From: Burkholderia cepacia ATCC 25416
GTDB taxonomy: Bacteria > Pseudomonadota > Gammaproteobacteria > Burkholderiales > Burkholderiaceae
Direction of reading: 5' to 3'
Assembly (NCBI RefSeq): GCF_001411495.1
Contig: NZ_CP012983.1
Location: 868,001 to 932,000 of the forward strand
Length of the DNA stretch: 64,000 bases
Positions 23,164 to 26,283 of this stretch are shown here, piece by piece. The notes under the pieces are model-generated. The model was not told where the DNA came from. It was given only the letters and a program-made list of their open reading frames with translations, and did not search any database. The number at the start of each line of letters is the position of its first letter. The first letter of the stretch is position 1. The translations under genes were made by a program, and so were the position numbers.

Positions 23164-24405
23164 TCACGATTCCGTCGACGGGTCGGGTACGCGCACGATG
23201 CCCTCCGGATACCGGATGTCGATCAGCCCGTGCTTGTCGCGGATGCGGATCGGCGGCACGACCTCCACGCTCGCACGGTCGACGCCCTCGCACACGGCCA
23301 GGTTCGTATTGGTGCGGTAGTACACGCGCTGGTCGTCGACCGCAAAGGCCCAGTTCAGAAAGCGCAGGCTTCGTGCGTCGATTCCCGGCAACGGCTTGCG
23401 GTAGTTCTTCCCCCACAGCACGTGACCGTCGGCGTCGATCAGCATGTCGTGAAAGACGCCGCGCGCGGTCTCGACGTCGACGCGCCCCGGCTTCGTCACG
23501 ATCTTGCCGTCGTAAAGGATCTGCGCGCCGAGCCGCGCATACCGGTAGCCGAGGCTCACCACGCCGGCCGGATCGTCGATGCCGCGCTTGCGCACACCGG
23601 CGCAGAACAGGTGCTTCGCATCCCGCGCGTACGCGCCGCCGATATGCGTCAGGCTGGCCACGTCGGCCTTGACGACGGTCAGGCGGCATGGGCCGCGATC
23701 GGGATCGTGGATGTCGCGCTCGACGTGGTAAGCCTGCCGTGCATCGCGATACCAGCCGCCGCCCAGGGGTTCCAGCGTGGCGGCATCGCCGTCGGCAACG
23801 AGCCCTTCGCCGGCATCGTCGTAGCTGAACGCGGCGCCGCCCGCGTAGTAGCGCAGCCCCGACGCATCGACGGCAAAGTGGTCGACCAGGTGCCGGAAGC
23901 TGCCCAGATCGAAGTTGTTGAGCGCGCGATACTGATGCCCGCTGCCGGTGCGGGCCCAGACGCGTTCGCCATCGCTGTGGAACGGCCCGCCGAGCGGGGC
24001 AAGCGGCTCGTTGCGCGTGTCGCGCCGCCGCCGCGCTTCCGCCTCCTCACGGCGCTGTGCCTCCTCGGCGTCGTAGATGGCCTGCTGCTCCGGCGTGACC
24101 CGCGCCGCATCCTCGTACTGCTGCATGTGGCGCGCATGCAGCGACTGCACGGTCGCGATGCAGTACACCGAATGCGGAACCGAGCGCAGATACAGCGCCC
24201 AGTCCTCGTCGTCGCACCGGTAGAACCAGTGGATTGCCTCACCGTCCCATCCGGCCGGGTCGGTGCGCGCGAGCAGCGCGGCCTTGACGTCCCGGACCTT
24301 GCCGGGCACGACGAAGGAAAGGCTGTAGCCGGTGTCACGGACGATGTCGAGGCTCTCATCCTCGAACAGGCTTCGCATCAGTTTTTCGAGTTCTTGCAAG
24401 GTCAT
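23164..24405 (-). CDS. DKNYY-repeat protein (413 aa)
   Basis: Protein of the DKNYY family, function unknown. The N-terminal 125 residues are a separate domain (MTLQELEKLMRSLFEDESLD, with an acidic/Arg-rich helix EEAQRREEAEARRRRD around 114-129). From about residue 150 come repeated short beta units in which an Asp precedes a Tyr/Phe: GLRYYAGGAAFSYDD, WYRDARQAYHV, YARDAKHLFCAG, ILYDGKIVTKP and AVDDQRVYYRTN. No signal peptide. It is divergent from hipBA, its start 115 bases from the first hip operator. Any link to that toxin system is unproven. Confidence 0.75.
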   Translation of the reverse strand: MTLQELEKLMRSLFEDESLDIVRDTGYSLSFVVPGKVRDVKAALLARTDPAGWDGEAIHWFYRCDDEDWALYLRSVPHSVYCIATVQSLHARHMQQYEDAARVTPEQQAIYDAEEAQRREEAEARRRRDTRNEPLAPLGGPFHSDGERVWARTGSGHQYRALNNFDLGSFRHLVDHFAVDASGLRYYAGGAAFSYDDAGEGLVADGDAATLEPLGGGWYRDARQAYHVERDIHDPDRGPCRLTVVKADVASLTHIGGAYARDAKHLFCAGVRKRGIDDPAGVVSLGYRYARLGAQILYDGKIVTKPGRVDVETARGVFHDMLIDADGHVLWGKNYRKPLPGIDARSLRFLNWAFAVDDQRVYYRTNTNLAVCEGVDRASVEVVPPIRIRDKHGLIDIRYPEGIVRVPDPSTES

Positions 24406-24520
24406 GGGCGCGTGTCGACCCGGTGACGGGCCACGGAATGAACGGACGTGCGGCGGTCATTCTAACCATGGCGACGTGCGCTGCCCCGGCCTCCTTCGGG
24501 ACATTCGGTCGATCCATCGC

Positions 24521-24690
24521 GTATCCGCCCGGATACGAACACGTCGACGGTCGTCATTTCGCCGCATCCGGTTCCCGATCGGGAACGAAACGAGCATTCC
24601 GTTGCCGGCACGGTCAATTCGTTTCCGTTCGGATACGAATTGATGCCTGCGCCAACGAGTTGTGCAATACTGTTCCCGATCAGATACGAA
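24521..24690. promoter_or_regulatory. Four phased hip operator-like palindromes
   Basis: Four 19-20-bp related sites: 24521-24540, 24571-24590, 24621-24640 and 24672-24690. The reading GT(A/T)(T/C)CC-N4-(G/A)G(A/G)(T/A)ACGAA is shared, and the second is a perfect TTCCCGATCGGGAA palindrome. Start-to-start spacing is 50, 50 and 51 bases. Escherichia coli HipB is known to bind repeated TATCC-N8-GGATA operators; here the half-sites are the same but the spacer is 4. They lie directly upstream of hipB (24705). Confidence 0.75.
24640..24668 (+). promoter_or_regulatory. Candidate hipBA promoter
   Basis: TTGATG (24640-24645), a 17-base spacer, then TGCAAT (24663-24668), lying between the third and fourth operators, 36 bases before the hipB start. 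Weak match but well placed for repression by bound HipB. GGAGG precedes the ATG. Confidence 0.35.
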
Positions 24691-24704
24691 GCACGGAGGA
24701 CGTC

Positions 24705-24989
24705 ATGCACGAGATCCTGCCCGTCGGCACGATCGGCGCACTCGCCAACCTTATCCGCGCGGCACGGCTCCAGCAGGGATTTACGCGGGACGAACTCGCG
24801 AACGCCACGGGGCTTTCGCCGAAATTCATCAGCCAGGTGGAGGCCGGGAAACCCACCGCGCAGGTCGGCAAGATCCTGCTGCTGCTCGGCGAACTGGGCA
24901 TCACTCTGCTCGCGCAATCGTCCATCGAGATTTCGGCGGCAAACGTGCTGAAGGCCGCGCAACGCCGCAGGAGCCGCCATGGCGAGTAG
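24705..24989 (+). CDS. hipB: HipB-like antitoxin, Xre-family regulator (94 aa)
   Basis: Antitoxin and autorepressor of a hipBA module. The Xre helix-turn-helix is LANLIRAARLQQGFTRDELANATGLSPKFISQVEAGKP (about 13-50), followed by the HipB-type KILLLLGELGITLLAQ segment. The C-terminal tail is Arg/Lys-rich (LKAAQRRRSRHGE). The ATG at 24705 has CGGAGG six bases upstream. It overlaps the kinase gene by 11 bases, as usual in these operons. The four palindromes immediately upstream are its likely binding sites. Confidence 0.87.
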   Translation: MHEILPVGTIGALANLIRAARLQQGFTRDELANATGLSPKFISQVEAGKPTAQVGKILLLLGELGITLLAQSSIEISAANVLKAAQRRRSRHGE

Positions 24990-26283
24990 AACGCTGATCG
25001 CCTCCGCGAACGGGTTGCGCATGGGCGCGCTGACCGACGACAAAGGCGTCTGGTCGTTCACGTACGACGCGCAGTGGCCGGCATCGCCACGCGCGTACCC
25101 GCTGTCCCCCGCTTTCCCGCTGCGCGCCGGCACCTTCACCGACACCTCGACCGATCGCCCGGTCCAGTGGTTCTTCGACAACCTGCTGCCGGAAGAAGGC
25201 ATGCGCACGTCGCTTGCGCGCGAGGCCAGGGTCGACGCCGCCGACGCGTGGGGCCTGCTCGCGTACTTCGGGCGCGAATCGGCCGGCGCGCTCACGCTGC
25301 TCGCGCAAGGCGAACAGGAAGCGGCCGGCAGCATGCAGCCGCTCCCGCTCGACGAACTCGAACGCCGCATCCAGGCGATGCCCGAGCGAGCGCTGACGGC
25401 CACCGCGCCCAAGCGCATGTCGGCGGCCGGCGCGCAGCAGAAGCTGCTGCTGATCCTGCGCGGCGACGCGCCGGACTACACGCTGTTCGAGCCGGTCGGC
25501 AGCGAACCGTCGATGCATCTGCTGAAACCGGACATGCGCGCCGCCGGCTATCCGCATTCGGCGATCAACGAGTTCTTCTGCATGAAGCTCGCGAAGCGGA
25601 TGGGCCTCGACGTGCCCGACGTGCACTTTCTGCGCGCGCCGTCCGCATGCTACGTGATCGACCGTTTCGACCGCGATACCGCGTCGGAGCCGGCCGCACG
25701 GCTGCATACGATCGATGCGATGCAGTTGCTGAACTACGATCGCGGCTTCAAGTACCAGCGCGCGAACGCGGAAGAACTCGGCCGCGCGATCGGGCAGACC
25801 AGCACGCGCGCGCTGGCGCGCCTGTCGGTGTTCCGCTGGACGATCTTCAACGTGGTGGTCGGCAACGGCGACGCGCACCTGAAGAACCTGTCGTTCTTCG
25901 TCGACGCGCGCGGCTACCGGCTCGCGCCGTTTTACGACATCGTCAGCACGGTCGTCTATCACACGCCCACGCACCGGCCCGATCATCGCGGCGATCATTG
26001 GCCGCACTGCGAGCTGACGATGCCGCTCGGCGCGGCGGCGCGCTTCGCCGACATCGACCTGGGCGCGCTGGTCGCGTTCGGCCACGCGCTCGGGCTCAGG
26101 GAGAAGGCAGCCGAAAACGAGCTGCGGCGCTTTCTCGAACCGCTCGATCGCAGCGTCGCGCAGACGCTCGACGAAGTGCGCGAGGTCGCGCGCCCCGACG
26201 CCGGGGAAATGCGCCTGCTGAACTCGATCGTCTCGATGCCGATCGCGGAGATGGGCCGCGCGCTGCGGCAGGGGCGCGGGTAA
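24979..26283 (+). CDS. hipA: HipA-like serine/threonine kinase toxin (434 aa)
   Basis: Kinase toxin; Escherichia coli HipA phosphorylates glutamyl-tRNA synthetase and causes growth arrest. All key elements are visible: the N-subdomain PVQWFFDNLLPEEGMR (61-76), the autophosphorylation/glycine loop SAAGAQQK (148-155), HLLKPD with the ATP lysine (K183), the catalytic loop NGDAHLKN (296-303, D298) and the metal Asp in FYDIVS (D320). The toxin therefore looks intact rather than decayed. Full-length, overlapping hipB by 11 bases. Convergent with a LysR gene 92 bases downstream. Confidence 0.88.
   Translation: MASRTLIASANGLRMGALTDDKGVWSFTYDAQWPASPRAYPLSPAFPLRAGTFTDTSTDRPVQWFFDNLLPEEGMRTSLAREARVDAADAWGLLAYFGRESAGALTLLAQGEQEAAGSMQPLPLDELERRIQAMPERALTATAPKRMSAAGAQQKLLLILRGDAPDYTLFEPVGSEPSMHLLKPDMRAAGYPHSAINEFFCMKLAKRMGLDVPDVHFLRAPSACYVIDRFDRDTASEPAARLHTIDAMQLLNYDRGFKYQRANAEELGRAIGQTSTRALARLSVFRWTIFNVVVGNGDAHLKNLSFFVDARGYRLAPFYDIVSTVVYHTPTHRPDHRGDHWPHCELTMPLGAAARFADIDLGALVAFGHALGLREKAAENELRRFLEPLDRSVAQTLDEVREVARPDAGEMRLLNSIVSMPIAEMGRALRQGRG

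Follow-up and report, generated by a model that had tools for sequence, protein, structure and literature searches.

Palindromes at a 50-bp pitch ahead of a Burkholderia cepacia hipBA gene pair are part of a spacing pattern that follows the HipBA clade

In this study we analyzed a 64,000-nucleotide stretch of the 8.6-Mb genome of Burkholderia cepacia ATCC 25416 (positions 868001-932000 of contig C3, NZ_CP012983.1), hereafter the window, which carries a hipBA toxin-antitoxin gene pair. HipA is the founding persistence kinase. Upstream of this pair are four related palindromes, likely HipB operators, whose centers are 50, 50 and 51 bp apart. The array appears to be the tip of a wider spacing rule, for which the shape of the HipBA complex is the likely cause. 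Across the hipBA loci that we could classify, the operator pitch is either 26-28 bp, in loci of the Escherichia coli HipA clade, or 49-51 bp, in those outside that clade, and it follows the HipBA clade independently of the host and of the operator sequence. Autoregulation of hipBA from multiple operators is already known, and the 50-bp pitch marks a widespread variant of it.

The four palindromes share the 18-bp core form CGTAyCCGnnCGGrTACG, and their centers precede the hipB start codon by 176, 126, 76 and 25 bases (Table 1). They exceed chance expectation: the motif-free palindrome-pair score of the array is z = 9.6 against 20 shuffles. An original prediction, made from the sequence of the window, had described the four palindromes, and we found their cores within 1-2 bases of the starts it gave and its spacings of 50, 50 and 51 bp exact. 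It had also named in advance the presence of the array in orthologous hipBA loci as a test, and the array is widely present there. Two of its further claims found no support. The sites had been placed on nearly the same face of the DNA, but at 10.5 bp per turn a step of 50 bp makes 4.76 turns, or about -86 degrees per step. Likewise, the proposed likeness to the E. coli operator is confined to site 1, the only one with a literal TATCC-N4-GGATA; related hipBA loci differ in operator sequence, and the E. coli half-sites have another register and a spacing of 28/39/28. What stands of that reading is an intact-looking hipBA pair with periodic likely HipB operators.

Close relatives keep the array. 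At E<=1e-60, 46 of the 65 genomes of the genus have a HipA relative, and the close set comprised 51 distinct upstream regions from loci with a HipA identity of at least 48.5% to the window protein, from genera including Burkholderia, Paraburkholderia, Trinickia, Caballeronia and Pandoraea. A position weight matrix, which was refined on these same regions and hence provides no independent test, finds sites in 50 of the 51 regions, with 196 sites at threshold 8 compared with 0.25 per shuffled set. Of the 146 spacings between them, 139 equal 50 bp (66) or 51 bp (73), and the others are 52 (1), 61 (1), 41 (1, weak site), 141 (1, weak site) and 101-102 (3). In the three loci with the 101-102 spacings (L062, L063 and L064) the middle site fell under the matrix threshold, and locus-specific matrices recover 50-51. 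The single miss (L072) carries a different palindrome, GGTATTC, again with spacings of 50 and 51 bp, and a Pandoraea locus (L070) carries five sites, each exactly 50 bp apart. In one otherwise 51-bp array (L058), the first two sites are 61 bp apart, approximately one helical turn extra. Several Burkholderia hipA copies look broken, with an internal stop codon or a split reading frame (L049 and the rows of genomes G036, G063 and G003); two of them, L049 and the G036 copy (L018), keep the upstream 50/51-bp array.

We also scanned hipBA loci without any motif, using all pairs of palindrome-like 18- or 19-mers at distances of 18-110 bp scored by symmetry and likeness, with 50 shuffles per locus as background and regions inside hipA as controls. 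Once identical regions were removed, 219 distinct loci were left from the 243 fetched, a set weighted to Burkholderia and its kin. A palindrome pair with z>=4 was found in 150 loci, compared with 3 of the 219 controls. The best distance was 49-51 bp in 98 loci (9 controls), 99-102 bp in 45 (8 controls) and 27-28 bp in 31 (8 controls). We then chained the sites of the 150 loci with locus-specific matrices. Spacings of 26-28 bp make up 77 of 87 in the 33 loci whose HipA shares at least 38% identity with that of E. coli. The remaining 117 loci, which include two (L208 and L220) that have spacings of 26-27 bp and that the HipA tree places in the E. coli clade, have 260 of 291 spacings at 49-51 bp, three at 42-47, none at 53-60 and the rest scattered. 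With redundancy removed, the 50-bp class has 109 of its 119 spacings at 49-51 bp and the 27-bp class has 74 of its 82 at 26-28 bp. The non-redundant spacings within 45-55 bp are 48 (2), 49 (15), 50 (71) and 51 (23), with a standard deviation of 0.64 bp; that of the distance from the last site to the hipA start, which includes the varying length of hipB, is 47.8 bp. Of the 69 loci under z = 4, 50 are not E. coli-like, and 31 of these have their peak at 49-51 or 99-102 bp and 2 at 26-28 or 53-55 bp, whereas 14 of the 19 E. coli-like loci peak at 26-28 or 53-55 bp and none at 49-51 or 99-102 bp (controls, 17 of 219 for the longer and 19 of 219 for the shorter pair of distances). One locus (L201) has eleven palindromes upstream of hipA, exactly 27 bp apart, an apparent tandem expansion of operators.

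To relate pitch to ancestry we used a HipA tree of 134 rows, non-redundant at 80% and built by a quick method, with 53 rows at 50 bp and 30 at 27 bp. The pitch changes once on this tree, on a branch with a Shimodaira-Hasegawa-like approximate likelihood ratio test (SH-aLRT) support of 98, compared with a mean of 24.8 changes for shuffled pitch labels, none of 500 shuffles being as low as one. The window HipA lies outside the E. coli HipA clade with the same support, and the window pitch belongs to the 49-51 bp class. Over 76 tree rows, the 12 classes of operator half-sites need 26 changes where the pitch needs one; the classes were formed by a greedy rule, and the figure of 26 is hence rough. 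Single-linkage clustering of the half-sites had merged unlike operators and was replaced by this rule. Moreover, the same genome carries on contig C2 two loci with an E. coli-like HipA, L002 (~2887325) and L003 (~3272110), with operator-like spacings of 26 and 27 bp. One pitch change against about 26 changes of operator class, together with both pitches in one genome, indicates that the pitch tracks the HipBA clade.

Several known systems resemble the window array in part. E. coli hipBA has four palindromic operators, TATCCN8GGATA, with cooperative repression by HipB and a 70-degree bend (PMC3376134). Like the window, E. coli K-12 thus has four palindromic operators ahead of hipBA; however, they are spaced by 28, 39 and 28 bp and their half-sites are 8 bp apart, while the window array has 50, 50 and 51 bp with another sequence and register, and lacks both TATCCN8GGATA and a 26-28 bp pitch. 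The possibility that 28, 39 and 50 bp differ by whole helical turns was dropped, as the center of the 27-bp class is about 70 degrees out of phase with 50 bp; a fit to one extra turn is limited to few cases, the enterobacterial center gap (39 or 37 bp) and L058 (61 bp). In Legionella hipBST, three HipB sites at even intervals ahead of the operon are described as bound in vitro, with '53-bp inter-operator gaps' (PMC10653801). The even spacing is shared with the window, but the kinase is split, and a 53-bp gap with 18-bp sites, compared here by its description, is not a 50-bp center-to-center pitch. The Caulobacter hipBA1 and hipBA2 promoters are reported to have inverted repeats at intervals like those of the E. 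coli complexes; that account likens them to the E. coli arrangement, with no 50-bp class or rule of two spacings in the part that describes them (PMC7029023). Beyond these descriptions for E. coli, Legionella and Caulobacter, the literature searched, mostly open-access texts and partly available ones, gave no hipBA-wide spacing rule.

The array also overlaps the predicted promoter. Between sites 3 and 4, we read a conserved block as an extended -10 element (Table 1); its conservation was assessed in 30 Burkholderia loci and 8 others, and the aligned relatives read TGg-CATAAT at this block (8 relatives, 66-71% HipA identity). Plain consensus scans for promoters and terminators found none, the predicted -10 included. 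Site 4 overlaps this element and the predicted start site and is the most conserved of the four, with a mean majority base of 0.99 in a stack of 17 Burkholderia loci. Because of this overlap, a complex bound at site 4 would occlude the transcription start and so repress hipBA. A genome scan with the pattern CGTAYCCGNNCGGRTACG found places with 0-1 mismatch solely within the window array (sites 1 and 3), and 363 places with up to 3 mismatches compared with 268 for the reversed control. Since sites 2 and 4 are themselves 3 mismatches from the pattern, the scan weakly favors a HipB that serves autoregulation only.

We propose that the palindromes are likely HipB operators and that an extended HipA-HipB2-HipA complex, packing end to end, determines the pitch by its length, a proposal from the sequence pattern to which we give slightly better than an even chance. 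A HipB dimer would bind each palindrome and carry two HipA kinases, and neighboring complexes would touch through HipA, giving cooperative autorepression and keeping HipA on the DNA. Of the two ideas in the original prediction, DNA wrapping and cooperative oligomer formation, the second would fit the array best. A compact complex of the E. coli type would give a pitch of ~92 A (27 bp), and an extended one, like that solved for Shewanella oneidensis, ~170 A (50 bp); the two pitch classes would match these two forms. In the published account, the kinases of the S. oneidensis and HipBST complexes are kept apart, the S. oneidensis complex being reported as HipBST-like with the HipB dimer between two kinases, while the E. 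coli complex is closely packed (PMC10627512). Contacts between HipA and HipB are likewise described as differing among complexes (PMC9438503, section 16). In its general form, the proposal is a two-ruler rule: operator pitch would be a read-out of repressor quaternary structure, compact at 27 bp and of the extended Shewanella type at 50 bp, the ruler would have outlived about two dozen operator changes, and a kinase filament at the promoter would generally restrain HipA. We offer this wider rule tentatively, at a little less than an even chance.

The assignment of an extended S. oneidensis-type architecture to the 50-bp class comes from the relatives of S. oneidensis HipA, whose HipBA-operator complex is available (4pu3, 4pu4) and whose relatives share the 50-bp pitch with the window. 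We searched S. oneidensis HipA in 395 genomes of one family, obtained matches in 83 and took the best 30 loci (41-53% identity; 5 already among the 219). No match was recognised as S. oneidensis itself, the best identity being 53%. In these best 30 loci, the best distance is 49-51 or 99-100 bp in 27 (controls, 4 of 30), and 14 reach z>=4, all at 49-52 bp (controls, 1). For example, the HipA of one 50-bp locus (L212) scores 318 bits to S. oneidensis HipA compared with 90 bits to E. coli HipA. A further hint is found at the hipA7 sites. During DNA binding, E. coli HipA forms dimers via the N-terminal subdomain (PMC6581861), and the hipA7 change G22S is thought to disrupt this dimerisation (PMC6581861, PMC7029023, PMC7180214). 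At the second hipA7 site, E. coli D291, every one of the 30 rows with the 27-bp pitch has aspartate, but only 17% of the 53 rows with the 50-bp pitch do; the window HipA has A280 there. This difference is weakly suggestive, because many other columns separate the two clades.

A number of points weigh against this reading. No pitch was called for 51 of the 134 non-redundant loci, and four loci whose pairs were significant received no call because their chains matched neither pitch well: L109 (27, 22, 50), L186 (17, 69), L197 (51, 26) and L235 (63). The E. coli K-12 spacing is itself irregular. The link of S. oneidensis to 50 bp relies on the promoters of relatives of its HipA, and the window HipA, just 24-25% identical to S. 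oneidensis HipA, is about equally distant from both solved proteins (1.8e-34 for E. coli and 8e-31 for S. oneidensis). Its structure model has a mean predicted local distance difference test score (pLDDT) of 85.3, and its best fold matches are HipA structures with a template modeling score of about 0.8; the model has no power to say which architecture the window complex has. Class-specific HipA columns are many, the classes being different clades. The crystal complex of E. coli O127 HipBST is 135 A across (PMC10627512), compared with ~170 A for 50 bp, so that direct contact is not assured and bending or flexible parts would be needed. HipB binding, contact, packing and repression are all inferred from sequence pattern.

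HipB is inherited together with HipA, and the ruler could therefore lie in HipB. If HipB alone set the spacing through a tail or its N-terminus, with no part for HipA, the tree result would fit equally, and HipB by itself is reported to bind operators in E. coli (PMC3376134) and Legionella (PMC10653801). A dimer on an 18-21 bp site, however, would leave ~30 bp free before the next site, and the window HipB has just 94 residues; we see a slim chance of this. Another possibility is that the 50-bp class uses the E. coli HipA-HipA contact over a bent or looped spacer, and that the path of the DNA alone differs. It draws on the HipA-HipA dimerisation on operators in E. coli (PMC7029023, PMC7180214) and on the 70-degree bend there (PMC3376134), but the 50-bp class does not conserve D291 and also departs at P86 and D88, a comparison limited by the many columns that differ between the clades and by the presence of P86 and D88 in 50% and 53% of the 27-bp class itself. 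We judge this unlikely.

The pitch might also have been inherited passively, from one duplication of a ~50-bp unit whose spacing had neither time nor cause to drift. Within single loci, spacers resemble one another a little more than shuffled ones do (0.45 vs 0.38), and the eleven sites of L201 resemble such a tandem expansion at 27 bp. Between Burkholderia and its kin genera, in contrast, spacers are near saturation (identity 0.44-0.46, compared with 0.39-0.40 when shuffled), while the sites remain at 0.74-0.77; the operator classes, by the greedy rule, change 26 times and the pitch once; and spacings of 49, 50 and 51 bp interchange, yet of the 291 just three lie at 42-47 bp and none at 53-60 bp. 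Passive inheritance is accordingly quite improbable. It is harder still to believe that the host, its RNA polymerase or nucleoid proteins set the spacing instead of HipBA. The overlap of site 4 with the predicted -10 means that the geometry must partly suit the promoter, but the window's own genome has hipBA loci at 50, 26 and 27 bp, and arrays of five sites at 50 bp (L070) or eleven at 27 bp (L201) extend far upstream of the promoter.

The restraint of HipA at the promoter is best known in E. coli, where it is described as involving HipA-HipA contacts between complexes on adjacent operators; these operators are 28 bp apart in two of three gaps. If many hipBA systems do use another pitch, another contact is likely, and the E. 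coli model, including its reading of hipA7, would not transfer to them. If the two-ruler rule holds, promoter sequence alone would predict the architecture of the HipBA complex and locate its operators.

The genes of the window locus have the expected order, with hipB, encoding an Xre-type helix-turn-helix protein, preceding hipA, and the 5' end of hipA overlapping the 3' end of hipB (24979 vs 24989). HipB matches the couple_hipB model TIGR03070 at 1.3e-13, which is under the cut-off of that model, while HipA has the N-terminal subdomain and the kinase domain in a single chain (Couple_hipA and HipA_C, both above cut-off). Its residues S148, D298, H300 and D320 align with S150, D309, H311 and D332 of E. 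coli HipA, which we take to be important catalytic or autophosphorylation residues. S150 is named in PMC10627512. By its HipB and HipA domains and these residues, the locus appears to be a HipBA type II toxin-antitoxin system. The HTH_3, HipA_C and Couple_hipA matches and the four aligned residues support the intact look that the original prediction gave to both proteins; toxicity, neutralisation and autorepression are predicted functions of the pair.

Table 1. Coordinates of the hipBA genes, putative operators and neighboring features in the window
Feature	Position	Strand	Description	Evidence
DKNYY-like protein gene	23164-24405	-	413 aa	Pfam match just under cut-off
Palindrome 1	24520..24537		likely HipB operator; CGTATCCG-CC-CGGATACG	motif score 21.6
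Palindrome 2	24570..24587		likely HipB operator; 50 bp after palindrome 1	motif score 25.0
Palindrome 3	24620..24637		likely HipB operator; 50 bp after palindrome 2	motif score 29.9
Predicted extended -10 element	24663..24671	+	TGC-AATACT	authors' reading of conserved block between sites 3 and 4
Palindrome 4	24671..24688		likely HipB operator; 51 bp after palindrome 3	motif score 25.4
hipB	24705..24989	+	Xre-type antitoxin, likely repressor, 94 aa	HTH_3 2.3e-09
hipA	24979..26283	+	Ser/Thr kinase toxin, 434 aa	HipA_C 1.7e-48, Couple_hipA 9.6e-23

The palindromes are housed in the gap of ~300 bp between hipB and the divergent DKNYY-like gene, whose expression the array might influence. A DKNYY gene is near hipBA (flank <=4 kb) in just 5 of the 40 loci L033-L072 (L033, L034, L035, L037 and L038), which indicates that the array travels with hipBA and not with this neighbor. 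A longer GTG-started frame (24423-24989, plus strand, 188 aa) runs through the array into hipB; we preferred the 94-aa start, with GGAGG ahead of it, because the spacers differ among relatives. The tRNA scan of the window found none, and PADLOC gave only weak matches in it, through likeness to helix-turn-helix or kinase domains. Plasmids listed in PLSDB with the same hipBA region belong to B. pyrrocinia (2) and B. cenocepacia (1), on replicons of 0.85-1.1 Mb, and match 93-100% of the query at 86-91% identity.
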